From: Natrarchaeobaculum aegyptiacum
Lineage (GTDB): Archaea; Halobacteriota; Halobacteria; Halobacteriales; Natrialbaceae
Length of the DNA stretch: 64,000 nucleotides
Direction: 5' to 3'
NCBI RefSeq assembly: GCF_002156705.1
Contig: NZ_CP019893.1
Location: 2,294,001 to 2,358,000 of the forward strand
Below the pieces are notes generated by a model. That model was not told the origin of the DNA, made no database searches, and saw only the letters and a program-made list of their open reading frames with translations. Below, piece after piece: positions 33,955 through 59,304 of the stretch (the stretch's first letter is position 1; each line of letters opens with the position of its first letter). A program made the position numbers and the translations under genes.

Positions 33955-35523
33955 TTACTCTTCGTGGTGCTGCTCGAGTTTGTACTTCTGGATCTTGCCG
34001 CTGGTGGTTCGGGGGAGTTCCTCGACGAACTCCACCTCGCGGGGGTGTTTGTAGGCGGCGACGTTGTCGAGGAAGAACTCCGTGATCTCTTCTGCGGTGA
34101 CGTCTTCGCCGGGTTCGACGCCGGGCGCGGGAACGACGAACGCCTTCGGTACTTCGTTGCGTCGTTCGTCGGGGACTCCGACGACAGCACCCTCGGCGAC
34201 GGCCTCGTGTTCGGCCAGTAACTCCTCGAGTTCGCTCGGGTAGACGTTGTAGCCGGCCGTGTTGATCATGTGTTTCTTCCGGTCGACGATCTCGTAGTAG
34301 TTGTTCTCGTCCCGGCGGGCGATGTCGCCGGTGCGGAAGTAGCCGTGTTCGGTGAACGCCGCCTCGGTCGCCTCGGGCATGTTGTGGTAGCCCTTCATGA
34401 CCTGTGGACCACGGACGAGGAGTTCGCCTTCCTCGCCCGGCGGGACCTCCTCGCCGCTCGCGTCGACGACCTTGCAGTCGGTCATCCGCAGGGGCTGTCC
34501 GATCGTCCCGTGGATCAACCCGAAGGACGAACCGGATTGTGAGTGGGTCGCTCCGTGGGTTTCGGTGAGGCCGTACCCCTCACCCATGTCGACGCCGGCG
34601 ACCTCCTCGAACTTCTCCTGGACCGCGACGGACATCTTCGCCCCACCTTCCCCGGCCGTGACGAGGCTCGAGAGGTCGTACTCACCGAACGAGTCGCTGT
34701 TGACCATGTCGACGTACATCGCCGTGACGCCGACGTAGTGGGTTATCTCCGCTTGCTCCATCAGTTCCATCGCCGCGTCGCCGTCCCAGTTTGCCGCACT
34801 CCGGAGGTAGATTCGGCCGCCACCGACCAGCGGCTGCCAGGCGGTGTGGGTAAAGCCGGTGATGTGGTACAGCGGGAGCCAGACGAGACTCCGGACCTCC
34901 TCCGGTTCGATCTCGTTACTGGACTGGGAGAGCGTCGCGTACATCTGTGCACGGAAATTTCGATGGGTGAGCTGGACGCCCTTCGGTTTGCCCGTCGTGC
35001 CCGAGGTGTACGGCAACAGTGCCACGTCGTCGTCGGCACGTTCGACCAGCGTCTGCTCGCCGCGAACCTCCGAAAACATCTCCACGTCGTCGTCTGTGCT
35101 CCCGACGCCGATCAGGACGGGGTCCCAGTCGATCTCCTCGAGACCCTCCCGGAGGTGTGGAAGCAACATCGCGTGGGTCAGGACGGCGCTCGCGTCGGTG
35201 TCTTCGAGCTGGTAGGCGAGTTCCCGGCGTCGATACTGGGGGTTGACCGGAGAGACGGCGACGCCGGCTTTCATCGCGCCGAGGGAGCCGACGATGTACT
35301 CCGGACAGTTCGGTAGATAGACCAGCATGACGTCGCCGGGTTCGACGCCGAGGTCGGCCAGCCCACCCGCAAAGTGGGCACTCTCCTCGCGGAGTTGGTC
35401 GTGGGTGTAGGTCGTCCCGTGGTACTCGACCGCCGTCTCCGACCCGTGGAGGCGTGCGGTCTCGTCGTGGATCCGTGCAGCGTTCCCTTCCGTGGCAACA
35501 TCTCGCAAGTCATCGAGCTCCAT
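33955..35523 (-). CDS. acyl-CoA synthetase (AMP-forming ligase), first copy
   Basis: A 522-residue ANL-superfamily enzyme that activates a carboxylic acid with ATP and CoA via an acyl-AMP. Motifs are the P-loop YTSGTTGKPKGVQLTH, GYGLTETHGATH (A5), YFRTGDIARRDENNYY (A7), and the C-terminal catalytic Lys in RTTSGKIQKYKL. The start ATG 35523 (MELDDLRDVATEG) has a TATA-like TTTTACTAT on the reverse strand. The acid substrate is unknown. It is divergent from an acyl-CoA dehydrogenase gene and related to the ligase at 40570-42171. Confidence 0.9.
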   Translation of the reverse strand: MELDDLRDVATEGNAARIHDETARLHGSETAVEYHGTTYTHDQLREESAHFAGGLADLGVEPGDVMLVYLPNCPEYIVGSLGAMKAGVAVSPVNPQYRRRELAYQLEDTDASAVLTHAMLLPHLREGLEEIDWDPVLIGVGSTDDDVEMFSEVRGEQTLVERADDDVALLPYTSGTTGKPKGVQLTHRNFRAQMYATLSQSSNEIEPEEVRSLVWLPLYHITGFTHTAWQPLVGGGRIYLRSAANWDGDAAMELMEQAEITHYVGVTAMYVDMVNSDSFGEYDLSSLVTAGEGGAKMSVAVQEKFEEVAGVDMGEGYGLTETHGATHSQSGSSFGLIHGTIGQPLRMTDCKVVDASGEEVPPGEEGELLVRGPQVMKGYHNMPEATEAAFTEHGYFRTGDIARRDENNYYEIVDRKKHMINTAGYNVYPSELEELLAEHEAVAEGAVVGVPDERRNEVPKAFVVPAPGVEPGEDVTAEEITEFFLDNVAAYKHPREVEFVEELPRTTSGKIQKYKLEQHHEE

Positions 35524-35694
35524 GGGTGAGTGTATCACAACAGGATAGTAAAACATGACGTTTCCGGTCACTGCGGCCGAACGGCCGTCCCCGATTTCGA
35601 ATGTGCTGTGTTCGACAGACGACGCCGTCGAATTCAGGCGGTGAGCGGGAAACGACAGGTCGGGACCGTTCTTCCAAGTGAAATCGACCGGATG

Positions 35695-35708
35695 TTGTAC
35701 ATTTACAA
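35695..35708. promoter_or_regulatory. palindrome over the acyl-CoA dehydrogenase TATA region
   Basis: TTGTA-CATT-TACAA sits about 24-37 bases before ATG 35732, right over the expected TATA position. It could combine core promoter and operator. No regulator is assigned. Confidence 0.35.
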
Positions 35709-35731
35709 TGTAGTATCTCGATACCCAAGTC

Positions 35732-36982
35732 ATGGAGTACCACGACTCCGAGAAAGCGAAGGAGGTTGCCGGACGCGTCGAGGCGTTCATGGACGAGGTC
35801 GTCATCCCGCGCGAGCGGGAGGCCCTCGAGACGGGCGAACCGATCACGATGGACGAGATTCACGACTTCTGGGAGATGGCCAAAGAGCGCGACCTGTTCG
35901 CCCCGCAGGTACCCGAGGAGTACGGCGGGCAGGGACTTGGCTTCCGGGACATGCTCCCGTCGTTCGAGCAGGTCGGCCGCTCGCTCGTCGGTGCGCTCTC
36001 GATCCGCGCGAACGCCCCACAGGAAGGGAACATGCACACCCTCGAGTTCGCCGGCACCGAGGACCAGAAAGAAGAGTGGCTCCGTCCGCTCGTACAAGGT
36101 GAGATCTCCTCTGCGTTCGCGATGACCGAACCCAAGGTCGGCGCTGGCTCCGACCCCAAGATGCTCCAGAGTACGGCCGTCAAAGACGGCGACGAGTGGG
36201 TCATCAACGCCCACAAGTGGTGGACCTCCGACGGGCTGAACGCCGACTTCTACCTGGTGATGGTCCGGACGGATCTCGAGGCCCACCCCTACGAGGGGAC
36301 CTCGATCATCCTCGTCCCGCGTGACGCAGACGGTGTCGAGGTCGTCCGAAACGTCCCCCACCTCGGTGGCCACGGCATCACCGAGCGCGAGGGCGGCCAC
36401 GCCGAGGTAAAGTTCGAAAACGTCCGCGTTCCCGTGGAGAACACGATCGGCGAGGAAAACGAGGGCTTCCGCATCGCTCAGCTTCGCCTCGGCGGCGGTC
36501 GACTCACCCACTGTATGCGCTACTCCGGGATGGCCGAACGTTCACTCGACATCGCGAAGGCCTACCTCGCAGAACGTGAGGCCTTCGGCACGACGCTCGA
36601 GGAGAAACAGGCGCTTCGTCATCGGATCGCCGACGCCGAGACGCGCCTGCACGCCGCCCGGTGTATGGTTCGTCACGCCGCCCGCGAACTCGACGACAGT
36701 GACGCCCGTATCGAGGTCGCGATGGCGAAGATGTACACGGCGAACGTCGTCACCGACATCATCGATCTCTCGCTGCAGGCCTGTGGCGGCAACGGGATCG
36801 GCAAGGACCTGCCGATCGCGTACTTCTACGAGAGCGTCCGCCCGTTCCGCATCGTCGACGGTGCCGACGAGGTCCACCGCCGCTCGATCGCCCGCTGGGC
36901 GTTCGAGGACATCGACGAGTCCGAAATCGAGACCACCCTCGACTTCGACGAGGACCTGCGCATCGACGCCCTCAGGGAGTAA
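35732..36982 (+). CDS. acyl-CoA dehydrogenase (ACAD10/11-like)
   Basis: A 416-residue FAD enzyme for the first oxidation step of acyl-CoA breakdown. The FAD/substrate blocks are FAMTEPKVGAGSDPKML, INAHKWWTSDGLN and GHAEVKFENVRVP. The C-terminal end FRIVDGADEVHRRSIARW is like ACAD10/11-type enzymes, not the short-chain IPDGTTEIQ type. The palindrome TTGTA-CATT-TACAA overlaps the promoter. It is divergent from the acyl-CoA ligase and convergent with an MBL hydrolase gene. Confidence 0.9.
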   Translation: MEYHDSEKAKEVAGRVEAFMDEVVIPREREALETGEPITMDEIHDFWEMAKERDLFAPQVPEEYGGQGLGFRDMLPSFEQVGRSLVGALSIRANAPQEGNMHTLEFAGTEDQKEEWLRPLVQGEISSAFAMTEPKVGAGSDPKMLQSTAVKDGDEWVINAHKWWTSDGLNADFYLVMVRTDLEAHPYEGTSIILVPRDADGVEVVRNVPHLGGHGITEREGGHAEVKFENVRVPVENTIGEENEGFRIAQLRLGGGRLTHCMRYSGMAERSLDIAKAYLAEREAFGTTLEEKQALRHRIADAETRLHAARCMVRHAARELDDSDARIEVAMAKMYTANVVTDIIDLSLQACGGNGIGKDLPIAYFYESVRPFRIVDGADEVHRRSIARWAFEDIDESEIETTLDFDEDLRIDALRE

Positions 36983-38186: not shown

Positions 38187-38924
38187 TCAGTCCCACTCCT
38201 CGCCGATGCCGCGCAGCGAGAACGGCCCGACAGGGAGGTTGTAGCCCTCCTCGAGTGCCTTGTCGACCTGTTCTTCCGTGGCGACTCCCTCTTCGACGAC
38301 GCGCTGGGCCTCTCGCCGCATCGCCGCGTAACAGCGGTTGGCGATGAAGCCGTAGGTGCCGGGTGCGTCGTCGATGGTGACGCCGGTTTTCCCCAGTTCG
38401 TCGACGAGTTCTTCGGCGAGGTTGACGACGGCCTCGTCCGTCTCGGGGGCCTGAACGATCTCGACCATCGACATGATCGGCACGGGATTGAAGAAGTGCA
38501 TTACGGCGACTCGAGAGGGGTCCGAGACCGCGTTCGCGATGGAGGTCACCGGGAAGCCGCTCGTGTTCGAATACAGCGGCTGGTCGTCGGTGACCGCATC
38601 GAGTTCGCGGAACACCTTCCCCTTTACTGCCAGGTCTTCGGTCACCGCCTCGATCACGAAGTCGGTGCCGTCGGTCGCCGCCTCGAGGTCCGTGGTGAAG
38701 GTGAGCCGTTCGAGGATCGCTTCTTTTTCGTCTTCGTCTATGTAGCCGCCTTCGACGGCATCGTCGAGGCCGTAGTTACCCGAGATCAGCCGATCGCGGG
38801 CTTCTTCGGCGAGGTCTTCGTTGATCTCGCGGACGCGGACGTCGTAGCCCGCTCGCGCGAGGACCTGTGCGATTCCGCTGCCCATGATGCCGCCACCGAT
38901 AACTGCCGCTGTACCTTGTGGCAT
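38187..38924 (-). CDS. 3-hydroxyacyl-CoA dehydrogenase, short form
   Basis: A 245-residue NAD enzyme oxidising 3-hydroxyacyl-CoA. The NAD fold is AVIGGGIMGSGIAQVLARAGYDV. The active-site region includes YSNTSGFPVTSIA and HFFNPVPIMSMVEIV, with the catalytic His in MHFFNP. The C-terminal domain begins at YGFIANRCYAAM but stops at GPFSLRGIGEEWD, about 40 residues short of the usual family length. The bases after the stop do not encode the missing end in any frame I checked. It may be a natural short subfamily or a truncated gene. Confidence 0.85.
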   Translation of the reverse strand: MPQGTAAVIGGGIMGSGIAQVLARAGYDVRVREINEDLAEEARDRLISGNYGLDDAVEGGYIDEDEKEAILERLTFTTDLEAATDGTDFVIEAVTEDLAVKGKVFRELDAVTDDQPLYSNTSGFPVTSIANAVSDPSRVAVMHFFNPVPIMSMVEIVQAPETDEAVVNLAEELVDELGKTGVTIDDAPGTYGFIANRCYAAMRREAQRVVEEGVATEEQVDKALEEGYNLPVGPFSLRGIGEEWD

Positions 38925-39036
38925 GGAGACACGTATCACAGTGTGTGACTTAGTTCTTGCGTGACGACGTGAGTCGGACGGGCACGGCCGTCGGTCGGAC
39001 GGTCGAGAACGGAACGATCGAATCGTGACGGAGGCT

Positions 39037-40569: not shown

Positions 40570-42171
40570 TCACGACTCCTCGACGTATCGTTCCGTAAAT
40601 TCGTCTTCGAGCTCCGTCTTTCTGACCTTGCCACTGCCGGTCTTGGGTAACTCCTCGCGGATTTCGACGTACCGGGGGTGCTTGTAGGGGGCGAGTTCGT
40701 CGAGGACGTACTCGGAGACTGCTTCTTCGGTGAGCGTCGCGCCGTCTTTCGGGACGACCGCGGCGGCGACCGTCTCCCCGCGCCGTTCGTCCGGCACGCC
40801 GAAGACCGCCGCCTCGAGGACGTCGGGGTGGTCGTAGAGGGCGTTCTCGATTTCGCGGGGGTAGACGTTGTAGCCTGCCGTCAGCACCATCTCTTTTTCG
40901 CGCCCTTTGATGTAGTGGTAGTTGTCCTCGTCCCGGGAGGCGATGTCGCCGGTACGGAAGAAGCCGTCCTCGGTGAACGCCTCCTCGTTAGCCTCGGGAT
41001 TCTCGTAGTAGCCTTTCATCACCTGTGGGCCGTCGACCAGCAGTTCGCCCTCCTCGCCGACGTCGACTACCTCGCCGTCCTCGTCAACGATCTTCGAGCG
41101 AGTATGTCCGATCGGCTGGCCGACGCTCCCCGGCCGATTGCCGAGGGTCGACGCCGTGATCGTGTGGGTCCCCGCAGTCGTCTCCGTGAGTCCGTACCCC
41201 TCCGAGAGACTCACCTCGAAGGTCTCCTCGAACTCCTGCTGGACCGGCTTCGGCAGTTTGTCCCCACCCTGACCCGCGCGGAGGAGGGTCTCGAGGTCGT
41301 ACTCCTCGGGGTCGTAGGCGTCGAGCAGGTCGTTGAACATCGTCGCGACGCCGACGAACGCCGGCACGTCGTGTTCGTCGAGCAACTCGAGGACGCGTTC
41401 TGGGTCCCACTGGTCCGGCCGCAGCAGGTGCAGCGTCCGGCCGGCACACAGCGAGGACATCATCTGGAGGCAGCCGGTGATGTGGTACATCGGAAGGATG
41501 ATCAGCCCGTCGCCTTTGATCGGACTGACGCTGTAATTCGAGACGCTGTTTGCGATCTGGACACGGAAGTTCCGGTGGGTCAGCAGGACGCCCTTCGGGT
41601 TGCCGGTCGTCCCCGAAGTGTACGGCTGCAAGAGTGTGTCCTCGTCCTCGCGCTCGACGGGCAACGACGCTGTCACCGTCCCACCGCTTCCCGCGTCCGG
41701 GAGCGACCTCGCGGGGGAGTCCTCGAGGACTCCCGCGTCGCTGGTCGAGAGAATCTCGGCCTCGAGGTCGGAGACGGCGTCGACGACGTGGTTACCTGGT
41801 TCGCCCGAGACGACGATCGCCTCGGCGTCGGCGTGGTCGACCTGGTAGGCGATCTCGCGGCGCCGGTAGGCGGGATTCAGCGGGCTCGCGACGACGCCGG
41901 CGCGGGTGGCCGCCCAGATCGTCGCACAGAAGTCGATGCTGTTCGGGATGTAGACGCAGGCCCGATCGCCTACGTCGAGCCCCGCCCCACGGAGGCCGCG
42001 GGCGTACTGGTCGACCAGTTCGTCGAATGCGCTGTAGGTGACCGACTCACCGTCGTGCTCGATCGCGATCTCGTCTGGGGAATTCGCGATCGCTCGCTCC
42101 AGTAGATTCGCGACGTTCCCGTCGTAGGGTGGCTCGAGGAGCGTGTCAGCTGGGACGATGTCGAGATCCAT
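40570..42171 (-). CDS. acyl-CoA synthetase (AMP-forming ligase), second copy
   Basis: A 533-residue ANL-family ligase. Motifs are the P-loop YTSGTTGNPKGVLLTH, GYGLTETTAGTH, FFRTGDIASRDEDNYH, and the catalytic Lys in PKTGSGKVRKTEL. The protein has the same plan and much wording in common with the ligase at 33955-35523, so the two are paralogues with perhaps different acid substrates. It starts MDLDIVPADTLLEPPYDG. It is divergent from the MaoC gene and its short upstream ORF. Confidence 0.9.
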   Translation of the reverse strand: MDLDIVPADTLLEPPYDGNVANLLERAIANSPDEIAIEHDGESVTYSAFDELVDQYARGLRGAGLDVGDRACVYIPNSIDFCATIWAATRAGVVASPLNPAYRRREIAYQVDHADAEAIVVSGEPGNHVVDAVSDLEAEILSTSDAGVLEDSPARSLPDAGSGGTVTASLPVEREDEDTLLQPYTSGTTGNPKGVLLTHRNFRVQIANSVSNYSVSPIKGDGLIILPMYHITGCLQMMSSLCAGRTLHLLRPDQWDPERVLELLDEHDVPAFVGVATMFNDLLDAYDPEEYDLETLLRAGQGGDKLPKPVQQEFEETFEVSLSEGYGLTETTAGTHTITASTLGNRPGSVGQPIGHTRSKIVDEDGEVVDVGEEGELLVDGPQVMKGYYENPEANEEAFTEDGFFRTGDIASRDEDNYHYIKGREKEMVLTAGYNVYPREIENALYDHPDVLEAAVFGVPDERRGETVAAAVVPKDGATLTEEAVSEYVLDELAPYKHPRYVEIREELPKTGSGKVRKTELEDEFTERYVEES

Positions 42172-42294: not shown

Positions 42295-42384
42295 ATGCCA
42301 GAACGATCGCTCACACAGGTGCAGTTCACGCGTCGGTTCGAGCCCGCCGTCCCGGCCGCTCGAGGTGGTCTCCGTGCCAACTAA
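42295..42384 (+). CDS. 29-residue upstream ORF overlapping the MaoC start
   Basis: An ATG at 42295 lies about 30 bases after a TATA-like AGTTATAGCC (42259-42268), the spacing of a leaderless transcript. It opens a 29-codon frame (MPERSLTQVQFTRRFEP...) that stops at 42382-42384, eleven bases inside the MaoC reading frame. The MaoC GTG at 42374 has no TATA box of its own at the expected place. The peptide has no recognisable family. It may act as a leader that couples translation, or it may mark a frameshifted old N-terminus. Confidence 0.45.
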   Translation: MPERSLTQVQFTRRFEPAVPAARGGLRAN

Positions 42385-43348
42385 ACCGCTCTCGGAGCTC
42401 GAGGCGCTCGTCGGCGAGTCCCGCGTCACCGTCGAGGACTTCCGGATCGAAGCCGGGAAAGTCGAGGAGTTCGCCCGCGCAGTCACGGACTCGAACCCGA
42501 TCTATCGGGACGAGGCCGTCGCACGGGAAGCCGGTCTCGAATCGATTCCCGCACCACTGACGTACGCGCGAGTGAGCCGATTCCCTCGCTATCAGGTCAC
42601 GGAAGACGGGACCTACGGCTTCGACGTCGGCTTCCGGCCGGAGTACGTCCTCCACGGCGAACAGGCCTACGAGTACGACCGCCCGCTCGCCGTCGGCGAC
42701 GTCCTGACGGGGACGACCACGCTGGCCGACGTGTTCCAGCGCGAGGGCGGCCGGGCGGGGACGATGACCTTCGCGGTCTACGAAACCGAGTACCACGACC
42801 AGTCCGGCGAGCGGCTCCTCCTCGATCGGGCGACGGCGATCGAGACCGAGGGTGCCGTCGACGACGGTGACGGTGGAGCCGGTACGGACGGAGACGACGA
42901 CGACACCGTGGACGAGGCCCCCGAACCAGTCAGCGTCGACACCGTCCGCTCGAGCGCCGACGTCGCGGTCGGCGACACCGGTCCACAGATCGTCGTCCCG
43001 GACCTCGAGCGCCGCCACTTCGTAAAGTACGCCGGTGCGAGCGGTGACTTCAATCCGATCCACTACGACGAGCCCTACGCCCGCGCGGCGGGCAACGAGC
43101 GCGTCTTCGGCCAGGGGATGTTCACCGCAGGAGTCACCTCCCGCGTCGTCAGCGACTGGTTCGGCGTCGACGCGGTCGACTCCTTCGGCGTCCGCTTCCA
43201 GTCGCGCGTCTTCCCCGGCGACACCGTCGTCGCTACCGGCGAGGTCGTCGACGTCACCGGTGATACCGTCTCGGTCGACCTCGAGACACAGACCGCCGCG
43301 GGCGAGACGCTCCTGACGGGCTCGGCGACGGCGACGCTCGAGGAGTAG
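42374..43348 (+). CDS. double-hotdog MaoC-type enoyl-CoA hydratase
   Basis: A 324-residue protein of two hotdog domains. The N-terminal half is FAS1-dehydratase-like (EEFARAVTDSNPIYRDEAVAREAG). The C-terminal half carries the full hydratase motif YAGASGDFNPIHYDEPYARAAG, with the catalytic Asp/His pair and a downstream VFGQGMFTAG. The two are joined by an acidic linker (residues about 165-195). MaoC proteins hydrate 2-enoyl-CoA, giving the (R)-3-hydroxy isomer. GTG 42374 (MPTKPLSELEALVG) fits the family start, with GTG 42365 as an alternative. It is convergent to the DUF35 and thiolase-like genes. Confidence 0.87.
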   Translation: MPTKPLSELEALVGESRVTVEDFRIEAGKVEEFARAVTDSNPIYRDEAVAREAGLESIPAPLTYARVSRFPRYQVTEDGTYGFDVGFRPEYVLHGEQAYEYDRPLAVGDVLTGTTTLADVFQREGGRAGTMTFAVYETEYHDQSGERLLLDRATAIETEGAVDDGDGGAGTDGDDDDTVDEAPEPVSVDTVRSSADVAVGDTGPQIVVPDLERRHFVKYAGASGDFNPIHYDEPYARAAGNERVFGQGMFTAGVTSRVVSDWFGVDAVDSFGVRFQSRVFPGDTVVATGEVVDVTGDTVSVDLETQTAAGETLLTGSATATLEE

Positions 43349-43384
43349 CGCGCTCGAGGGCCGAAAAATAGCACCGAATCAGTT

Positions 43385-43813
43385 CTATCGAAGTTCGAAC
43401 ACCGGGAGCGCCGCCTCGTCTGTGACCTGCCAGAAGGTGACGCCGACCGGTGCACCGACCTCGATCTCGTCGGGCTCGCAGTCGACGAGCGCGAGCAATC
43501 GCGGTCCCTCCGTGAGTTCGACGTTCGCGACGACGTACGGGGTCCGGTCTTTGAAACCGGGTTCTCCCGGAATGTGACAGACGGTGTACGTATACACCGT
43601 GCCGGTTCCCTCACTCACCTCGAAGGCGGGATCGACGGCACCACAGCCCGTACAGACCGCCCGCGGGTAGAGCTGGCTCGTTCCACACTCCGCACAGCGC
43701 TGGTACAGCAATTCACCCTCGAGCGTGGCCGCCCAGAAGTCGGCGTTCGCGCCGTTTGGAACCGGGACCGGTCCCTCCCACTCCTCGCGACGGTCTTCGA
43801 CGTCCCCCGTCAT
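43385..43813 (-). CDS. DUF35 zinc-ribbon/OB-fold protein
   Basis: A 142-residue acyl-CoA-associated protein. The zinc ribbon has C40, C43, C54 and C57 (QRCAECG ... VCTGCG). An OB-fold follows at about residues 65-140 (GTGTVYTYTVCHIP, PYVVANVELTEGPRLLALV). DUF35 proteins are obligate partners of thiolase-like enzymes such as Ltp2 and archaeal acetoacetyl-CoA thiolase. Its start overlaps the stop of the thiolase-like gene by four bases, so the two are made together. Confidence 0.92.
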   Translation of the reverse strand: MTGDVEDRREEWEGPVPVPNGANADFWAATLEGELLYQRCAECGTSQLYPRAVCTGCGAVDPAFEVSEGTGTVYTYTVCHIPGEPGFKDRTPYVVANVELTEGPRLLALVDCEPDEIEVGAPVGVTFWQVTDEAALPVFELR

Positions 43814-44958
43814 GCTTCCCTCCGGAGGACCACGGTACTGCTCGAGGAGAGCAGGCCACCGGTGCCGTGTGCGACGGCGACCTCCGCGCCGTCGACCTGT
43901 CGCTGTCCCGTGTAGTCGCCGCGAAGCTGGCGTGCGGCCTCGATGAGGACGAACACGCCGAAGTGACCGGGGTGACAGTACGAGAGTCCACCGCCCTGTG
44001 TGTTCATCGGTAACTCGCCGCCGGGGGCGGTCGCGCCGTCTTCGACGAACTGGCCACCCTCGCCTTTCTCGCAGAAGCCGAGGTCCTCGAGGGTGACCAG
44101 CGCGGTGTAGGTGAACGAGTCGTACAGCTGGGCGACGTCGACGTCGTCGTGGGTGATTCCGGCCTGCTTGAAGGCTTTCGGCCCGGTGACGGCCGCGCCG
44201 GTGGTCGTCATGTCCGGCATCTCGCTGACGTCGCCGCGGTGGGTGGTCGTCGAGGCGACCCCGGCGACCGAAATCTCTGGGACCCCGAGTTCGCGCGCTT
44301 TCTCTTCCGAGACGAGGACGACCGCGCCCCCGCCATCGGAGACGAGACAGCAGTCGTACATGTTAAACGGCTCGGCAATCGGCCGCGAGTCGAGGACGTC
44401 GTCGACGGTGATCGGGTCGCGGTGTTCGGCTTTCGGATTGAGTGCGGCCCACTCGCGAGTCGAGACGGCGACTTCGGCCAGTTGCTCTTCGGTCGTCCCG
44501 TACTCGTGCATGTGCCGGCGAGCGGCCATCGCGTACGCCCCCGGCGGCCGGAACAGCCCCGTCGGCCGAACGAAGCTCTCGACGGGGTGGTCGACCTCGA
44601 GCGAGCGATCCCGTCCCGAGCCGGTTCGACTGGTCGAGCCGTAGGCGATGACGACCACGTCGGCCCGGTCCCGGGCCATCGCGTCTGCGACGTGGCCACA
44701 GAAGTGCTCGAACGACGACCCACCGATTTCGGTGCCCTCGAGGAACGACGGTTCGTCGAGGTCGAGGTACTCCGACAGCAACAGTGCGGGCATGTAGTCG
44801 TCTCCGCCGGCGACCGCGACGCCGTCGACTTCCTCGAGGGTGAGGTCGGCGTCCTCGAGGGCGCGGACGGTCGCGATCGCGGCGTTGTCGAGCCAGCTTC
44901 TGTCGGGTGTTTCGATCAGGTCGCTCTCGGCGACTCCGGCGACGATCGGTTCAGACAC
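43810..44958 (-). CDS. thiolase-superfamily (SCP-x/Ltp2-like) protein lacking the usual nucleophilic Cys
   Basis: A 382-residue thiolase-fold protein. Where thiolases have the CxSG nucleophile loop, this one reads EIGGSSFEHFCG, with no Cys at the expected place. The C-terminal loops are GGGLSYCHPGHFG (His kept) and AHGTGGLLSS. This matches lipid-transfer/Ltp2-like aldolases and not true thiolases. Ltp2-type enzymes cleave 3-hydroxyacyl-CoA by a retro-aldol step with a DUF35 partner, and a DUF35 gene overlaps the end here. The start is uncertain: GTG 44958 (VSEPIVAGVAES) fits the fold, and ATG 45060 would add 34 residues. Confidence 0.82.
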   Translation of the reverse strand: MSEPIVAGVAESDLIETPDRSWLDNAAIATVRALEDADLTLEEVDGVAVAGGDDYMPALLLSEYLDLDEPSFLEGTEIGGSSFEHFCGHVADAMARDRADVVVIAYGSTSRTGSGRDRSLEVDHPVESFVRPTGLFRPPGAYAMAARRHMHEYGTTEEQLAEVAVSTREWAALNPKAEHRDPITVDDVLDSRPIAEPFNMYDCCLVSDGGGAVVLVSEEKARELGVPEISVAGVASTTTHRGDVSEMPDMTTTGAAVTGPKAFKQAGITHDDVDVAQLYDSFTYTALVTLEDLGFCEKGEGGQFVEDGATAPGGELPMNTQGGGLSYCHPGHFGVFVLIEAARQLRGDYTGQRQVDGAEVAVAHGTGGLLSSSSTVVLRREA

Positions 44959-45656: not shown

Positions 45657-46841
45657 ATGATGCTGAACGATGAACAGCGGATGATTCGTGACTCGTTGCG
45701 GGAGTTCATGGACGAGGAGATCGCGCCCGACCTTCCCGAGGCGGATCGACAGCCGCTCTCGAAGGACGACGCGATCAGCTACATGCAACAGATGGCCGAG
45801 ATGGACGTCGGCCCCTACGCCGAGGGGAGCTACGACGATCCGGTCACCAGCACGATCGTCAGCGAGGAGGTCTCCCGGGTCTGGCCCAGCCTGCAGGTGA
45901 CGATGGGAATGTCGTTGCCGGTGACGATGTTCGAAATCTTTTCCGAGCGGACTCGCGAGGCATACACAGAGGAGTACGAAGACGACCGACTCGTTGGGTG
46001 TTTCGCCATCACCGAGCCGGAAGGTGGCTCCGACACGAAGGTGCCGAACACGACGGCGATCAAAGACGGCGACGAGTACGTCATCACCGGCGAGAAGACG
46101 TGGGTGTCGAACGCCCCGATCGCCGACATCGCCCTCGTCGTCGCGTGGGACGACGAGAACGACCGGCGCGACATGTTTCTCGTCGACGAGAAGACCGCCG
46201 GCTTCGAGACTCGCGAACTCGAGAAGCTTGGCTGGAAGGGCTCACCCACCGGCCAGTTGTTCTTCGACGAGTGCCGGATCCCGGTCGAGAACAAGCTCTC
46301 GCGGGCAGTCATGGAGGCCGTCAGTGACGGCCGGATGGATCCGAACGACTCGGCGCTGGCCGGCGGCGGTCCGGGCGGCAACCCGCTCAACAGTATGTTC
46401 GCCTCGATGCGCAACGGCATGGCTGCCATCTCCGTCGGCATCATGCAGGCTGCCTACGAGGCCGCACTGGAGTACGCGACCGACCGGGAGGTCTTCGACC
46501 AGCCGATCGGCCAGCACCAGCTCGTACAGGAGAAACTCTACAACATCCGCGCCGGCCTCGAGACCGGGCGATTGCTCACCCGCTACACTGCCCAGAAGAT
46601 CGCTGCGGGCGACCCGGAGGCCCGGATGCTCTCCTCGCTGTCGAAAGGCTGGGTCTGTGAGAAAAGCGTCGAGGTGACCGACGACGCCTTGCAGGTCTAC
46701 GGCGGCAACGGCCTCTCGACGGACTACCCGCTCGAGCGTTACTACCGGGACGCCCGGACCATGCCGATCCCCGACGGCACCACCGAGATCCAGAAGCTGA
46801 TCGTCGGCTACGAACTGACGGACCTGCAGGCGTACACCTGA
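45657..46841 (+). CDS. acyl-CoA dehydrogenase (short/branched-chain type)
   Basis: A 394-residue FAD acyl-CoA dehydrogenase. The blocks are CFAITEPEGGSDTKVPN, VITGEKTWVSNAPIADIA, and the C-terminal GGNGLSTDYPLERYYRDAR, then PIPDGTTEIQKLIVG with the usual catalytic Glu of short-chain enzymes. An extra insertion GGGPGGNPLNSMFASM lies in the middle. It differs clearly from the other two copies (35732 and 57948). ATG 45657 and 45660 are adjacent options. It is followed by an APC permease gene. Confidence 0.9.
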   Translation: MMLNDEQRMIRDSLREFMDEEIAPDLPEADRQPLSKDDAISYMQQMAEMDVGPYAEGSYDDPVTSTIVSEEVSRVWPSLQVTMGMSLPVTMFEIFSERTREAYTEEYEDDRLVGCFAITEPEGGSDTKVPNTTAIKDGDEYVITGEKTWVSNAPIADIALVVAWDDENDRRDMFLVDEKTAGFETRELEKLGWKGSPTGQLFFDECRIPVENKLSRAVMEAVSDGRMDPNDSALAGGGPGGNPLNSMFASMRNGMAAISVGIMQAAYEAALEYATDREVFDQPIGQHQLVQEKLYNIRAGLETGRLLTRYTAQKIAAGDPEARMLSSLSKGWVCEKSVEVTDDALQVYGGNGLSTDYPLERYYRDARTMPIPDGTTEIQKLIVGYELTDLQAYT

Positions 46842-49142: not shown

Positions 49143-50537
49143 TCACTGCCAGTTCGACTGCTGTCTAACTTCCTCGATGCGTCGCTCGTACTCGTCGTAG
49201 GCCCATTCGTAGGCGTCCTCGGGGTCTTCTCCCTCGACGACGACTCGATTGGTCATCTCTTCTGGGATGTTGAAGGCGCTGACGTGGTTCGATGCGGGCG
49301 TACTCGGTATTTCGACGTCCAGTTCCGGGACGATCTCGTCCATGACGTGCTGGTTCTTCCTGAGGAACTCGCCGTCTTCGAGCTGGAAGATCTCTGCCGA
49401 CTGGTACTCGTCTGTCTCCATGATCTCTTCGTACGGCGGGATGAATCGCATCGGTTCCATGAGCGACGCCTCGACGTGGCGCTCGGGACCGTACATGTAC
49501 CGCTTGAACTCCCTCGCTTCGTCGGGGTTGCTCGAGCCGTCGATGATCGGTGTCCCGTTGACGAGGATCCATCCGCGCGTGTGGGGATCCACGTCGTCGT
49601 TTCTGAGGGGGATGAGCGCCTGTTCGGTGTTCAGCGCGACCTCTTCTGCGCCCGCGAAGTACGCCGGTCCGCAGAGCCAGGCGTTGTTCATGAAACACTG
49701 CCCCATCCGCCCGGCGATCCAGTACTCGATCGTCGTCCCCCAGTCGACGGCGGACGGGTCGGGCGAGTACTCGGCCATGTCCTGGAGCATCTCGAGGACG
49801 GGCAAGACGTGCTGTTCCTCGAACGCGAGTTCGACCTCGTCGCCCCCAGCTTCCTCCCAGGTCAGGCCCCCGGCGTTGTACAGCCAGTTCGAGAAGTCAG
49901 ACCCCGACTTCCCGGCGGGCGCACCCGGGAGTGCCCAGCCGCGCATGTCTTCCCACTCGCCGCCGGCTTCGTCGATCGCCCGGGCGTTCTCGCGCAGTTC
50001 GTCCCAGGTCTCGGGAACCTCGAGTCCGAGGTCCTCGTAGACGTCCGCCCGGTAGTTGAGACAGCCGCCGACGTAGACGCCGTGAGGGATCGAGTGGAAC
50101 TCGTCGTCCCGGTCTCCGACCAGCGGCTGGAGCGTGTGATCGAAGAGCACGTCCCCCCAGTGGTCCTGGAGGTCCTCGACGACACCGGTGACGTCCTGAG
50201 TCATCCCCTGGTTGATCAGCTCACCGAGTTCCGACGTGGTCGCGTGGTAGAACTCGGGGGGATCGCCGGCCTGCATCAACGCAGCGAGGCGCTGTTCGCC
50301 GGTCCCCTCGAAGCCCGCGAACTCGAGGTTGACGGGCACGTCCGACTGTTCCTCCCAGCTCGGGATGAGTTCGTCTTCCCAGTACGGTTCCCACTGGTCT
50401 CCGGTAAGGTCAGTCAGGATGTGCAGTTCACCTTCCCCGTCACCGTTACCGCCGCCAAGACATCCAGCGAGCGCACCTGCGATCCCGGCACCGACGCCGC
50501 CGAGCACCGTCCGTCTAGTTGTGCCATCAGTTGGCAT
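49143..50537 (-). CDS. ABC importer substrate-binding lipoprotein (sugar type)
   Basis: A 464-residue family-1 (MalE/UgpB-like) solute-binding protein. The N-terminus has TRRTVLGGVGAGIAGALAGC, a Tat signal with lipobox Cys, so it is exported folded and lipid-anchored. The mature part shows LTGDQWEPYWEDELIPSWEEQ, YHATTSELGEL and MFxNNxW-like (actual CFMNNAWLCGP). The ligand is probably a sugar or glycerol derivative, inferred from the partner genes. ATG 50537 is preceded by the strong TATA box TTTTATATAC on the reverse strand, so it may also be transcribed alone. Confidence 0.92.
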   Translation of the reverse strand: MPTDGTTRRTVLGGVGAGIAGALAGCLGGGNGDGEGELHILTDLTGDQWEPYWEDELIPSWEEQSDVPVNLEFAGFEGTGEQRLAALMQAGDPPEFYHATTSELGELINQGMTQDVTGVVEDLQDHWGDVLFDHTLQPLVGDRDDEFHSIPHGVYVGGCLNYRADVYEDLGLEVPETWDELRENARAIDEAGGEWEDMRGWALPGAPAGKSGSDFSNWLYNAGGLTWEEAGGDEVELAFEEQHVLPVLEMLQDMAEYSPDPSAVDWGTTIEYWIAGRMGQCFMNNAWLCGPAYFAGAEEVALNTEQALIPLRNDDVDPHTRGWILVNGTPIIDGSSNPDEAREFKRYMYGPERHVEASLMEPMRFIPPYEEIMETDEYQSAEIFQLEDGEFLRKNQHVMDEIVPELDVEIPSTPASNHVSAFNIPEEMTNRVVVEGEDPEDAYEWAYDEYERRIEEVRQQSNWQ

Positions 50538-50689
50538 ACACCATATCAATCGTTAACAACAGTATATAAAAGTACCGTCCGTCGTCGCCCAGCGTGGGCG
50601 GCCGACACAGCGCCGCATCGGATCACAGGTGTCACCTGCCGAACGGACGGCTTCACTGCCTCGGGTTCACCGCCAAACCGCAGGCGACG

Positions 50690-51766
50690 TCAGTAGACTC
50701 TCAGACCGCTCTCGGGATCGAACGCCTTCAGCGCGTCCGTCTCGAACCTGAGCCCGTACTGGGACTCGCCGCCCCTGAACTCCGGTGGCGTGACGACGGT
50801 GATCCGGCCCATCGGCGTCTCGAACAGGCTGTGGGTCTGGTCACCCAGCGTCTCGTCGAAGACGTGATCGGCCGGGATCCCGTTGTCCGGGTCGTCGACG
50901 ACCTCGATGTTCTGTGGTCGAATCCCGACGCGGATGTTCCCACCGGTGTACTGTTCGAGGGCGTCGTCCCGTTCGAGTTCGTAGGTCTGTTCGCCGACGT
51001 CGAGGTCGAGCGCGCCGTTGCGACGGTCGATCCTCGCGTCGAAGAACTCCATGTTCGGCCGCCCGATGAACTCGCCGACGAACGACGACTCGGGTTCGTT
51101 GTAGACCTCGCTGGGGGTCCCGACTTGCTCGAGTTCGCCGTCGTTCATGACGGCGATCCGGTCGCTCATCGTCATCGCCTCCTCCTGGTCGTGGGTGACG
51201 TACATCGTCGGGCAGCCCACCTTTTCGGTGACTTCGGCGAACAGCGGTCGCAACTCGTGTTTGAGCTTCGCGTCGAGGTCGCTCATCGGCTCGTCGAAGA
51301 GGAACATCGTCGGTTCCCTGACGATCGACCGACCGAGGGCGACGCGCTGTTGCTGTCCGCCGGAGAGTTCGCTCGGGTACTTATCGAGCTGGTCTCGGAT
51401 ATGGAGCATCTCGGCTGCTTCCTCGACCCGCTCGTAGCGCTGTTCTTTGCTCGCCCCCTCGAGTTTCAGCGGGTAGGCCATGTTGTCTCGAACGGTCATG
51501 TGCGGGTAGAGCGCGATGTCCTGAAACAGGAGCGCGATCCCGCGTTGCTGGACGGGATAGTCGGTGACGTCGTGGTCACCGAACATGATGTTCCCCGAGG
51601 TGGCCGTCTCGAGGCCGGCGACGCACCTGAGCGTCGTCGTTTTGCCACAGCCCGAGGGTCCGACGAGTGTGATGAACTCGCCCTCTTCGATCGTGAGGCT
51701 GAAGTCGTCGACTGCGACGAGCTGTCCGAACTGTTTCGTGAGGTTCTGGATTTTGACGTCGACCAT
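50690..51766 (-). CDS. ABC importer ATPase (MalK/UgpC type)
   Basis: A 358-residue ATPase. It has Walker A GPSGCGKTTTLR, Q-loop FQDIALYPHMTV, signature LSGGQQQRVALGRS, Walker B FLFDEPMSDLDAKL, and His in YVTHDQEEA. A C-terminal TOBE/OB domain follows at about residues 240-358 (IRVGIRPQNIEVV), as in carbohydrate importers. It is third in the leftward operon permease-permease-ATPase-binding protein. Confidence 0.93.
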   Translation of the reverse strand: MVDVKIQNLTKQFGQLVAVDDFSLTIEEGEFITLVGPSGCGKTTTLRCVAGLETATSGNIMFGDHDVTDYPVQQRGIALLFQDIALYPHMTVRDNMAYPLKLEGASKEQRYERVEEAAEMLHIRDQLDKYPSELSGGQQQRVALGRSIVREPTMFLFDEPMSDLDAKLKHELRPLFAEVTEKVGCPTMYVTHDQEEAMTMSDRIAVMNDGELEQVGTPSEVYNEPESSFVGEFIGRPNMEFFDARIDRRNGALDLDVGEQTYELERDDALEQYTGGNIRVGIRPQNIEVVDDPDNGIPADHVFDETLGDQTHSLFETPMGRITVVTPPEFRGGESQYGLRFETDALKAFDPESGLRVY

Positions 51767-51827
51767 GAATCGTAATGTGGTATGTGTTGACTCTCGTTAT
51801 GATTTTGTCTATTCTTACTCTGACACG

Positions 51828-52712
51828 TTAGAGCGCCCTGATCTTGAATCCCTGCAGGAGGTACGACTGCAGGAAGAACGCGAACAGGAGTGCCGGCATC
51901 GAAACCAGCAGGCTCACGGCCATGAACTCCGTCCATCCGGTCTCCCACGACGAGTGGAACAGCCGGAAGATGCCGGGCGGGAACGTCGTGGCGCTGTCGT
52001 CCGGCATGAGGATGTACGAGAACGTGAAGTCGCCCCACGCGATGGCGAACGCGAACACCGAGTTCGCGATCATCGCCGGCTTCGTCTGGGGGACGATCAC
52101 GTCGAGGAAGCCCCGCCACCGCGGCGCACCGGCGACCCACGCTGACTCCTCCATCGACGCCGGGATTGTCTGGATGTACTTCCACATCAGCCAGACCGCG
52201 AACGGCAGCGAGATGGCACTCAGTGCGAGGATCAACCCGACGTACCGGTTGAGCAACCCGAGCGTGTCCCAGATGAGGTACAGCGGGATCGCGAGCACGA
52301 TCGGGCTGAACATGTATCCGACCAGCAGGAAGCGGGCGATCCGAACCTTGTACTTGTACTGGAACCGCGCGAGCCCGTATCCCGCGACCAGCGAGACGAC
52401 GATCACGGTGATCACGACGCCCGCGCTGACGATGATACTGTTGAGCAGGTACCGACCGACCGTCGGATTCATCACGACTTCGAAGTTCTCGAGCGTGAAC
52501 GACGCGGCGTCCGGGAGGAACGAGATCCCGGCTTCCTCGAGCGCGAGCCGCGTCTTGAACGCGTTCTGGGCCATCCAGTAGACTGGGAACCCGAGGATCA
52601 GGAAGAGGACCCCGTAGCTTCCCCACAGGCCCGCTCGGTAGATCAGGCTCCGGACCGTGTGTGGAACGCGGAAGCTGCGTCCGAACTCTGGTGTTTCGTC
52701 TTTCGTGCTCAT
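51828..52712 (-). CDS. ABC importer permease, MalG type
   Basis: A 294-residue permease with six membrane segments. The coupling EAA-like loop reads EESAWVAGAPRWRGFLDVIVPQTKPAMIAN. The C-terminus ends GFKIRAL, typical for MalG-like subunits. Its ATG overlaps the stop of the upstream permease (ATGA), so the two subunits are translationally coupled. Confidence 0.92.
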   Translation of the reverse strand: MSTKDETPEFGRSFRVPHTVRSLIYRAGLWGSYGVLFLILGFPVYWMAQNAFKTRLALEEAGISFLPDAASFTLENFEVVMNPTVGRYLLNSIIVSAGVVITVIVVSLVAGYGLARFQYKYKVRIARFLLVGYMFSPIVLAIPLYLIWDTLGLLNRYVGLILALSAISLPFAVWLMWKYIQTIPASMEESAWVAGAPRWRGFLDVIVPQTKPAMIANSVFAFAIAWGDFTFSYILMPDDSATTFPPGIFRLFHSSWETGWTEFMAVSLLVSMPALLFAFFLQSYLLQGFKIRAL

Positions 52713-53656
52713 GTCTGGACCTCCTGACTTGGGTTCATGTACTTGAGGTAGACGATCCCCGTGACGAGCAGGAACAGGAACATCACGATCGCGATCGTGT
52801 TCCCCATCCCGTAGGCGCCGGTGCTGAAGGTCTCCTGGTAGGCGAGGATCGGCATCGTCTGGGTAGCGGTACCCGGACCGCCCTGGGTAAGCTGGTAGAT
52901 GATGTCGTACTTGTTGAACATGAAGATCGCTCGAAGGAAGATCACGACCAGGATCGCGCCGTAGATCCGTGGCAGGGTGATGTCCCGGAACATCTCCCAG
53001 GTCGTCGCCCCCGAGACCTTCGCCGCCTCGTAGAAGCGGTCCGGAATCGACTGCAGCTGGGCGAGCGTAAACAGGGTCACGAACGCCGAGAACTTCCAGC
53101 TACTGATGATGATGACGGCTCCCATCGAGAGGCTCGTGTTCCCCAGCAGGAATCCGTCCCAGAGCCCTAACTGGATGCCTGCAGCATGCAGGACGCCGTC
53201 GTAGGGGTCGAGCATGAACAGGAACATCAGCGTCACGATGATCGTCGGGATCAGGTAGGAGGTGAACACGAGCGTGCTCAGGATCCGGCTCCCGCGCGTG
53301 ATCTTGTTGATGACCAGTGCCATCCAGACCCCGACGCTCATCTGGATGATCGTCGATCCAACCATGAAGACGACGCCTCGCCACATCGAGCCCCAGAATC
53401 GATCGATCTGGAAGACGTTCACGTAGTTCTCTACGCCAACGAACTCCCACTGGGGATTCAACAGTGGAACGTTGTGCAATGATGCGACGAACGCGAATCC
53501 GATCGGTATCAGGGCGATGATCGTATAGAGTATCACCACCGGCAGTATCGTGAGCCATCCCCAGAAGTCCTCGGAGGTGATCTCGACCCGACCGATCGAG
53601 AACCCGTCCTCGAGGAATCGACGGGAACGTTCGACTGACTCCGTGTCGATTGCCAT
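52709..53656 (-). CDS. ABC importer permease, MalF type
   Basis: A 315-residue permease with about six membrane segments and the EAA-like loop YEAAKVSGATTWEMFRDITLPRI. It is the first gene of the leftward importer operon. ATG 53656 has a TATA-like AAATATG on the reverse strand about 27 bases upstream. A GTG at 53671 would lengthen it by five residues. The importer probably takes up a sugar or polyol. It lies beside the acyl-CoA genes, and no sugar-specific enzyme is adjacent. Confidence 0.92.
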   Translation of the reverse strand: MAIDTESVERSRRFLEDGFSIGRVEITSEDFWGWLTILPVVILYTIIALIPIGFAFVASLHNVPLLNPQWEFVGVENYVNVFQIDRFWGSMWRGVVFMVGSTIIQMSVGVWMALVINKITRGSRILSTLVFTSYLIPTIIVTLMFLFMLDPYDGVLHAAGIQLGLWDGFLLGNTSLSMGAVIIISSWKFSAFVTLFTLAQLQSIPDRFYEAAKVSGATTWEMFRDITLPRIYGAILVVIFLRAIFMFNKYDIIYQLTQGGPGTATQTMPILAYQETFSTGAYGMGNTIAIVMFLFLLVTGIVYLKYMNPSQEVQT

Positions 53657-53817
53657 GCGATACCAATACACGGCATATTTGTTAACAGTTTCGCTCCCGG
53701 TGGTCTCGTCGACTCACCCCCGAGCTGTCCCGACCTGCGGTTGCCGACGACGACCGAGATCGATCGAACGCCTCGATCGCACTCGAGGCCGAAACCGAGA
53801 ATTCGCGGTTAGCAGTA

Positions 53818-54585
53818 CTACTCGAGTCGTGGAGTTCCCTTGATCGTGTACGTCTCGCCGACGACGTACGACGAGGCGGGACTCGAGAGGAACTGTGCGA
53901 GGTCGGCGACCTCCTCGGGTCTGCCGATCGTTCGATCGGCGCGCGTCCGGTCGATCGCGTCGTCGTCCTCCTCGACACCCATCTGGGAGCGGACCCCCTC
54001 GGTTGCGACCAGTCCCGGTGCGATGCAGTTGACCCAGACGTCGTCTGCCGCCCAGTCGGCGGCGACGGAGGTCGTGTAGTTGATCACGCCGGCTTTCGCG
54101 GCCCCGTAGTGGCTCATCGAGCGCGACCCGCGCTGGCCGGCGACGCTCGCGACGTTGACGATGCGTCCGCCACCGTTCTCGCGCATGTGACCGCCGATCA
54201 CCTGCGTACAGTGCATCGTCCCGTGGAGGTTGATGTCGACGATCGTCTTCCAGCCGTTCTCGCTGATCTCAGCCGGCGGGGCCTGAAAGCTCGCGCCCGC
54301 GTTGTTGATCAACACGTCGACGCTGCCGAACGCGTCGACCGTCTCGGTGAGAAGCCGCTCGACCGCCTCGCGGTCGGTCACGTCACACTCGACCGCCAGT
54401 GCCCCTCCGCCCTCGTGCGCGTCGATCTCCTCGGCAACTGGCTCGACGTTCTCGAGACTTCTCGAGGTGACGACGACGTTCGCACCGTCGTCGGCGAATC
54501 GTTCGACGATGGCCCGACCGATTCCGCTCGAGGAACCGGTGACGACTGCTGTCTTGCCGTCGACGCTGAACTGGCTGGTCGTCAC
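53818..54585 (-). CDS. short-chain dehydrogenase/reductase
   Basis: A 255-residue classical SDR. It has the cofactor loop TGSSSGIG, NNAG in VDVLINNAGASF, catalytic Ser in VASVAGQRG, YxxxK as YGAAK, and the C-terminal block YVVGETYTIKGTPRLE. Residues SR after the second strand (VVTSRSLEN) suggest NADP preference. The substrate is unknown. A 3-oxoacyl reductase role would fit the surroundings. It is divergent from the D-2-hydroxyacid dehydrogenase gene. Confidence 0.9.
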   Translation of the reverse strand: MTTSQFSVDGKTAVVTGSSSGIGRAIVERFADDGANVVVTSRSLENVEPVAEEIDAHEGGGALAVECDVTDREAVERLLTETVDAFGSVDVLINNAGASFQAPPAEISENGWKTIVDINLHGTMHCTQVIGGHMRENGGGRIVNVASVAGQRGSRSMSHYGAAKAGVINYTTSVAADWAADDVWVNCIAPGLVATEGVRSQMGVEEDDDAIDRTRADRTIGRPEEVADLAQFLSSPASSYVVGETYTIKGTPRLE

Positions 54586-54825: not shown

Positions 54826-55760
54826 GCGTCGTCGTCACGCCCTACGTGCTCGCCGGCGGCGGGCCGCTCGTGGCAGAAGCGATCGCCGAGCGTCGGCCTG
54901 GCCTCGAGATCGAATACGTCGACGACGAGGACGACCTCGTCGAACGCGTCGCCGACGCCGAGGCGGTTCTCACCCACCGGCTCCCTGACTCGATCCTCGA
55001 GGCGGCGACAGACCTCGAGTGGGTACAGGCACTCAGTGCCGGCACGGACGCCTACGATCACGACGCCCTCGCCGACCGAAACGTCGCACTGACGACCGTC
55101 TCCGGCATTCACGCGAAGCCGATCGGCCAGCACGTCCTCGCGGCACTGCTTCACTTCGAACGTCGGTTCGATCGCGCGGTCGCCCAGCAACGCCGTTCGG
55201 AGTGGCGTCGGTACACCGGCGGTGAACTCGGCGACCGAACGGTCGGCATCGTCGGCGTCGGCGCGATCGGCTCACAGGTCGCCGAGTACTGCCAGCCCTT
55301 CGACGCTCGCATCGTCGGGCTCAAGCGCGACCCGACCGACGCGCCGGAGACCCTCGCGGAAAGCTACGGGCCGGACGACCTCGAGACCCTGCTCACCCAG
55401 AGCGACTACCTCGTGCTCGCGTGTCCGCTGACCGAGGACACCCGCGGGCTGATCGACGCCGATGCGCTGGCGACGCTTTCCGGGGACGCCGTCGTCGTCA
55501 ACGTCGCCCGCGGTGAGGTCGTCGACGAGACCGCACTGATCGACGCCCTCGAGGCCGACGAACTGGGTGGAGCGGCCCTCGACGTCTTCGAGGAAGAGCC
55601 CCTCCCGGAGGAGTCGCCCCTGTGGGACCGCGACGACGTGCTTCTCACGCCCCACATCGCCGGGTCGACGCCACACTACTGGGACCGCTGTGCCGAGGTC
55701 TTCCTCGAGAACTGGGACCGGTACCAGTCGGGCGAGTCGCTTCGGAACCGGGTCGTCTGA
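54822..55760 (+). CDS. D-2-hydroxyacid dehydrogenase
   Basis: A 312-residue NAD(P) enzyme of the D-2-hydroxyacid family, reducing a 2-oxoacid or oxidising the D-hydroxyacid. The Rossmann signature is GIVGVGAIGSQVA (about residues 143-155). The catalytic triad is visible as Arg in VNVARGEVVDE, Glu in DVFEEEPLP, and His in LLTPHIAGSTP. The GTG start overlaps the stop of a 24-residue upstream ORF (GTGA). The next gene, a luciferase-like enzyme, follows on the same strand. Confidence 0.9.
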   Translation: MSVVVTPYVLAGGGPLVAEAIAERRPGLEIEYVDDEDDLVERVADAEAVLTHRLPDSILEAATDLEWVQALSAGTDAYDHDALADRNVALTTVSGIHAKPIGQHVLAALLHFERRFDRAVAQQRRSEWRRYTGGELGDRTVGIVGVGAIGSQVAEYCQPFDARIVGLKRDPTDAPETLAESYGPDDLETLLTQSDYLVLACPLTEDTRGLIDADALATLSGDAVVVNVARGEVVDETALIDALEADELGGAALDVFEEEPLPEESPLWDRDDVLLTPHIAGSTPHYWDRCAEVFLENWDRYQSGESLRNRVV

Positions 55761-55836
55761 CCGGGCGCTGGTCGGTCCGTACTCGCCGGGGAGAACCCGT
55801 CGATACTTTGAAGCGTCGAGCGGTAGATGTGATCGT

Positions 55837-59192: not shown

Positions 59193-59304
59193 TTCACGCC
59201 ACACTGGAAAGCGTCGGGCTCGTTTCGGACACCGATTTTATCCGGGCGCGTTTAGCGTTCAACAGAGGGGAACAGCTATAATCCCGGCGGAAAGATAATT
59301 GCAT

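Follow-up and report, generated by a model that had tools for sequence, protein, structure and literature searches.

Shortening of acyl chains by retro-aldol cleavage is known from bacterial steroid and ibuprofen breakdown, where thiolase-fold enzymes act together with DUF35 partners. The catalytic Tyr has been proven in the steroid aldolase Ltp2 of Thermomonospora curvata (TcLtp2, Tyr294) and in the bile acid aldolase Sal of Comamonas testosteroni (CtSal, Tyr302), the catalytic acids being Tyr344 of Ltp2 and Cys304 of Sal (PMC12329534). The ibuprofen enzyme IpfD-IpfE releases propionyl-coenzyme A (CoA), and the retro-aldolase role of IpfD is based on pathway and mutant work (PMC9195938); a precedent for an aldolase paired with a stand-alone DUF35 protein is offered by Atf1/ChsH4 (PMC10398937). 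In haloarchaea, BktB and PhaA of Haloferax mediterranei are genuine two-subunit ketothiolases, with a beta subunit of the oligonucleotide/oligosaccharide-binding (OB) fold and a proposed Ser-His-His active site (PMC7137286). Here we describe a locus of the haloarchaeon Natrarchaeobaculum aegyptiacum, contained in a stretch of 64,000 nucleotides (NZ_CP019893.1, positions 2,294,001 to 2,358,000; the window), in which a thiolase-like protein without the catalytic Cys, called THIO in the following, is encoded next to a DUF35 protein and a MaoC hydratase. The comparisons reported below suggest that THIO and DUF35 probably form a two-subunit retro-aldolase within an acyl-CoA catabolic island.

Gene layout

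The THIO gene lies on the minus strand at 43810..44958; its longest open reading frame extends to 45060, and residues are counted from 44958. The protein scores 460 bits against the NF004811 (PRK06158) model, above the cut-off of 421, and also matches Thiolase_C_1. The sequence GGSSFE, singled out in the original prediction in place of the nucleophile loop, occupies residues 79-84, and alignment with real thiolases puts Gly80 in the column of the catalytic Cys. The gene overlap described there was likewise found: the TGA of THIO and the ATG of the DUF35 gene (43385..43813, minus strand) share the letters ATGA at 43810-43813. DUF35 is a stand-alone protein (PF12172 and PF01796), composed of a CX2C..CX2C zinc ribbon with four-Cys (C4) ligands and an OB fold, and is proposed to be an obligate partner of THIO.

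MaoC (42374..43348, plus strand) is a double-hotdog enoyl-CoA hydratase, made of a FAS1_DH-like half (PF13452) and a MaoC half (PF01575). Only the C half is active by its residues, carrying the D-x-N-P-x-H motif of hydratase 2 as DFNPIH at residue 225; the N half has DSNPIY at 39, Tyr replacing the motif His. The double-hotdog protein does adjoin DUF35, as had been noticed, but on the opposite strand, in convergent orientation and across a gap of 36 bp, so that the three genes do not form one operon. MaoC carries no DUF35 domain, and the two functions, joined in a single chain in ChsH2 and Shy, are here in separate genes on opposite strands.

Active-site residues

The loss of the Cys is in itself weak evidence in haloarchaea, because true ketothiolases of the BktB/PhaA type use Ser; a retro-aldolase deduced from this loss alone was rejected for this reason (PMC7137286), and the argument is carried by a Tyr-for-His change and by the phylogenetic tree. 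Three active-site positions were compared. The Cys thiolases included have Cys, HDxF and GHP (GHA in 6esq), BktB-alpha has Ser, HDMF and GHP, TcLtp2 and IpfD have Gly, YDxF and Tyr, and CtSal has Gly, YDCY and Gln. THIO shows Gly80, Y279DSF and His329. It lacks the catalytic Cys of the Cys thiolases and shares with the retro-aldolases both the Gly at that position and the Tyr of the YDx(F/Y) motif, Tyr279 matching the proven Tyr294 and Tyr302. Likeness to the Ltp2 active site thus extends to the Gly and the catalytic Tyr and fails at the acid, where His329 replaces Tyr344; the Sal acid is also missing, Ser281 standing at the place of Cys304 in YDCY. Judged from sequence, the Gly/Tyr/His set is a new active-site variant, unlike those of Ltp2 (Gly/Tyr/Tyr) and Sal (Gly/Tyr plus Cys).

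Conservation was evaluated on THIO and 80 named relatives. Gly79, Gly80, Tyr279, Asp280 and His329 are present in 81 of 81 sequences, a regularity not due to chance, and none of the 80 relatives has a Cys at position 80; the Cys that, if found aligned in the active site, was to count against the original prediction is thus not there. Other positions vary, 81 being S, A or C, 82 S or A, and 281 S or A. The relatives were fetched by two patterns, one of which contained YDSFT, and the conservation of Tyr279 is therefore partly by construction; Ala281, however, which that pattern could not retrieve, occurs in 45 of the 81 sequences, all of them with Tyr279. Gly80 and His329 were in neither pattern.

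Phylogeny and fold

A maximum likelihood tree of 37 proteins splits, with support 100/100, into HDxF thiolases, whether with Cys or Ser, and Cys-less YDxF proteins. The former side comprises solved archaeal thiolases, BbsB, SCP2 thiolase, BktB-alpha and four Cys thiolases of the window genome; the latter holds TcLtp2, CtSal, IpfD (picked from pIBU218 by its place in the ipf cluster) and the THIO family, in a deep branching order that is unsettled. The split persists when the four motif regions are removed, with support 100/99, and every one of the 200 bootstrap trees counted contains it. A clustering of THIO with acetyl-CoA acetyltransferases, named at the outset as a contrary outcome, did not occur, since THIO groups with the thiolase-fold retro-aldolases (100/100). 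The proteins on the thiolase side carry His where THIO has Tyr279, except for one divergent outlier with Gln.

This outlier (L054:7524-8684, genome G020) keeps the Cys, has QDTN for HDxF and Glu for the GHP His, and is divergently placed beside a THIO ortholog, with a DUF35 of its own. Another divergent protein, Cys-less, with the motif YDDYP and a DUF35 gene (L062:8792-10428, genome G014), falls on the Ltp2/IpfD side.

These data bear on the possibility that THIO is a true haloarchaeal two-subunit beta-ketothiolase, composed of an alpha and an OB-fold beta subunit, with a Ser close to the lost Cys acting as the nucleophile. Such an enzyme would have the same layout with overlapping genes, Cys-less thiolases being genuine in H. 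mediterranei (PMC7137286); in addition, THIO is annotated as acetyl-CoA acetyltransferase, and His329 matches the His of the thiolase GHP motif. The Cys column, however, is Gly80 in 81 of 81 sequences, as opposed to Ser in BktB-alpha, and the variation at residues 81 and 82 leaves no conserved Ser nearby. BktB keeps HDMF where THIO has YDSF, and is grouped by the tree with Cys thiolases, separated from THIO at 100/100, so that THIO has neither the Ser nucleophile nor the HDxF His and lies on the opposite side. Moreover, the genome already holds a BktB-alpha-type Ser thiolase with an adjacent small DUF35-type gene (at 475040, locus L011), which shares 79.6% identity with a thiolase of the 505-kb H. 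mediterranei plasmid. The plasmid gene, whose record has new locus tags, we infer to be bktB (HFX_6004) from its plasmid location, its overlap with a small gene downstream and its active-site Ser. A Ser-type ketothiolase was rejected as the best reading on motifs and tree, and we regard it as quite unlikely.

The AlphaFold2 model of THIO has a predicted local distance difference test (pLDDT) value of 92, with a low-confidence loop at about residues 111-130. The best PDB matches in a fold search are, in order, 4u4e, 9myr (Sal) and 6ok1 (Ltp2), followed by thiolases; the template modelling (TM) scores overlap, and aldolases are not separable from thiolases by this measure.

The DUF35 partner

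The nearest solved structure to DUF35 is the DUF35 domain of ChsH2 (6ok1_B), followed by that of Shy. A DUF35 gene adjoins the THIO gene in 80 of 80 named loci, distributed among Actinomycetota, Pseudomonadota, Chloroflexi, Bacillota and one Natrinema. The reaction class first proposed is supported by tree placement, motif residues and the proximity of DUF35 to aldolase DUF35s. Together with gene order, the missing Cys, the conserved residues and the DUF35 pairing, this leads us to consider it likely, though by no means assured, that THIO is a retro-aldol C-C lyase and that the two proteins form a complex.

The same genome encodes a second thiolase that lacks the Cys, has YDSF and adjoins a DUF35 gene (3321523-3322686; L058:9006-10609), at 45-47% identity; it lies outside any catabolic island, beside adenylosuccinate synthetase and genes whose function is unknown. 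Plasmid pDK3 of Rhodococcus sp. DK180 (L048) carries within 6 kb an ipfDE-like pair and a Cys-less thiolase of the window type; like the window island, it also has an oxidoreductase of the TIGR03617 kind.

Distribution in haloarchaea

Among 394 Halobacteria genomes, THIO is found over the cut-off in 21 and MaoC in 61. MaoC is present in 20 of the 21 THIO genomes and in 41 of the other 373 (Fisher p 6e-17, a value inflated by relatedness). MaoC as a dedicated partner of THIO was nevertheless rejected, as many genomes have it without THIO. The THIO-DUF35 pair with a convergent MaoC was seen at 19 of 20 distinct haloarchaeal loci (THIO identity at least 84%), although some of these genomes may be close kin, and two loci (L045 and L187) appear to be one plasmid, by equal length and gene order. 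Most parts of the surrounding island recur in other haloarchaeal genera, MaoC being convergent wherever it is present. The copy of Natrinema versiforme (L105:8001-9136) appears frameshifted, its 1136 bp being matched in two tblastn pieces, either by assembly error or as a pseudogene.

In 19 of the 21 genomes, an ortholog of one classical Cys thiolase is encoded no more than 20 kb from THIO; the copy of the window genome, from which the motifs NRMCGSG, NEAF and GHPLG were read, is about 560 kb away. A duplicate thiolase is thus not needed, and the idea that THIO stands in for the thiolase of the island was rejected. For the same reason the original wording, that cleavage occurs in place of thiolysis, was too strong. 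Three islands (L211, L207 and L203) are otherwise like that of the window and have no THIO-DUF35, a natural presence/absence comparison; considered with the nearby Cys thiolase, they indicate that THIO-DUF35 adds an optional step to normal thiolysis. Steroid side-chain breakdown, in which thiolytic rounds come before one retro-aldol round, offers a likeness.

Absence from otherwise similar islands and loss of the classical nucleophile could also be expected of a non-catalytic or scaffolding pair which binds acyl-CoA. Tyr279, Asp280, His329 and the glycines are, however, strictly conserved in both bacteria and archaea; this points to catalysis, and makes a mere scaffold very unlikely.

The catabolic island

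The module is embedded in a conserved catabolic island at 33955-60078. Next to MaoC lies a syntenic AMP-binding acyl-CoA ligase (40570..42171, minus strand), proposed to activate the substrate, followed by a syntenic major facilitator superfamily transporter (PF07690; 39037..40335, minus). A second acyl-CoA ligase (33955..35847, minus) is given as the longest open reading frame, its start being uncertain. Three acyl-CoA dehydrogenases are encoded at 45657..46841 (plus), 35732..36982 (plus) and 57948..59144 (minus). A short-chain dehydrogenase (53818..54585, minus) is located in relatives between MaoC and the first ligase. An F420-type luciferase-like oxidoreductase (55567..56826, plus; start taken from the longest open reading frame) scores 370 bits against TIGR03617, with a cut-off of 278. 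A carbohydrate-type ATP-binding cassette transporter (49143..53671, minus) consists of solute-binding protein, ATPase and two permeases, the second called from the annotation of its ortholog. One 2-hydroxyacid dehydrogenase and two hydrolases of the metallo-beta-lactamase fold are also present, and an IclR-type regulator (59299..60078, plus) marks the edge.

The 3-hydroxyacyl-CoA dehydrogenase at 38187..38939 (minus) lacks half of PF00725, its C-terminal domain stopping at 46 of 97 positions. The protein seems to be short by nature, because orthologs in three genera are similar in length (250-265 residues).

This gene content has to be weighed against the idea that THIO is another non-thiolytic YDxF enzyme acting on C-C bonds, either by decarboxylating CoA esters of the malonyl type or as an aldolase that runs in the direction of synthesis. 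TbSLP, with the motif YDCF, decarboxylates malonyl-CoA, very slowly, and CtSal has no malonyl-CoA decarboxylase activity (both in PMC12329534). Bacterial relatives of THIO adjoin CoA transferases and various ligases, which suggests varied substrates; ligases, acyl-CoA dehydrogenases, hydratase and transporters point to breakdown. This explanation is unlikely, but deserves some weight.

Proposed reaction

In the retro-aldolase reading, an acid would be imported, activated by acyl-CoA ligase, desaturated by acyl-CoA dehydrogenase and hydrated by MaoC to a 3-hydroxyacyl-CoA. THIO would then cleave the bond between the alpha and beta carbons, with no acyl-enzyme intermediate and no requirement for free CoA. 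Tyr279 would deprotonate the 3-hydroxyl, the C-C bond would break to give an acyl-CoA enolate and an aldehyde or ketone, and His329, at the position of Ltp2 Tyr344, would reprotonate the enolate to acetyl- or propionyl-CoA. On chemical grounds, a retro-aldolase should pay off where the 3-hydroxyl is non-oxidisable, for example in the tertiary alcohol formed from a beta-branched acid. Most likely, the substrate of this step is an intermediate hard to oxidise to the 3-ketoacyl-CoA, such as one with a tertiary 3-hydroxyl, beside ordinary thiolysis. The branched or isoprenoid substrate named in the original prediction is a guess; isoprenoid acids would fit this tertiary-alcohol logic. Channelling of the hydrated product, also suggested there, finds no support: MaoC has no DUF35 domain, and even in Shy-Sal 93% of this product escapes (PMC12329534).

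Several points weigh against a retro-aldolase. The proton donors of both Ltp2 and Sal are absent from THIO, and a Ser in place of Cys304 gives an inactive Sal (PMC12329534). MaoC often occurs without THIO, and the 3-hydroxyacyl-CoA dehydrogenase and short-chain dehydrogenase of the island would equally permit beta-oxidation of the usual kind. An aldehyde dehydrogenase was found neither in the window island nor among the 25 commonest families of bacterial neighbors, and such neighbors were rejected as a clue to the product. No published activity was found for any PRK06158 member, nor any paper on PRK06158 or 4u4e.

We give about even chances to a broader proposal, by which the whole PRK06158 family, in bacteria and haloarchaea, may be a further class of thiolase-fold retro-aldolases with a Tyr/His pair, through which hindered acyl-CoAs could leave beta-oxidation in haloarchaea by retro-aldol cleavage, a route undescribed in Archaea. 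A large family annotated as 'acetyl-CoA acetyltransferase' is probably mislabelled. If it performs no thiolysis, pathway reconstructions in which its members are counted as thiolases would be in error, and the known range of retro-aldol chain shortening would come to include archaea and acids other than steroids. The Gly/Tyr/His set would then add one more kind of active site to this fold, of use in aldolase engineering. Because related haloarchaea differ in the presence of THIO-DUF35 within similar islands, the role of the pair is open to direct test.

Comparison with known systems

The best match in sequence and fold is the PRK06158 thiolase of Sphaerobacter thermophilus (4u4e), which belongs to the THIO family and has the motifs GGSSF, YDSF and HPG; it is a structural-genomics entry only, for which no published function was found. 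The Ltp2-ChsH2(DUF35) aldolase of T. curvata (6ok1) shares the thiolase fold, Gly at the Cys position, the catalytic Tyr (YDHF, YDSF in THIO), a DUF35 partner and a nearby MaoC hydratase. It differs in Tyr344, which is His329 in the window, in the fusion of DUF35 to MaoC, and in a steroid setting not seen in the window; identity between Ltp2 and THIO is about 33% over the fold alignment. Sal-Shy(DUF35) of C. testosteroni (9myr) has the same fold, the Gly, and Tyr302 at the place of Tyr279, but its essential Cys304 corresponds to Ser281 and its Gln352 to His329; in Shy, hydratase and DUF35 share a chain and the zinc site is C3H1, while the window DUF35 is separate and C4. Atf1-ChsH4 of Mycolicibacterium neoaurum provides the case of an aldolase whose DUF35-only companion is a protein of its own (PMC10398937), although Atf1, 56% identical to Sal1, belongs to the Sal branch and acts on sterols. 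IpfD-IpfE of pIBU218 resembles the window pair in the missing Cys, the adjacent DUF35 gene, the acyl-CoA ligase and the motif, YDAF in IpfD; it has Tyr at the position of His329, and the enzyme that precedes it is a ring dioxygenase instead of a hydratase. BktB/PhaA of H. mediterranei are two-subunit, Cys-less and haloarchaeal like THIO-DUF35, but are set apart by Ser at the Cys position, by HDMF and by their place on the opposite side of the tree.

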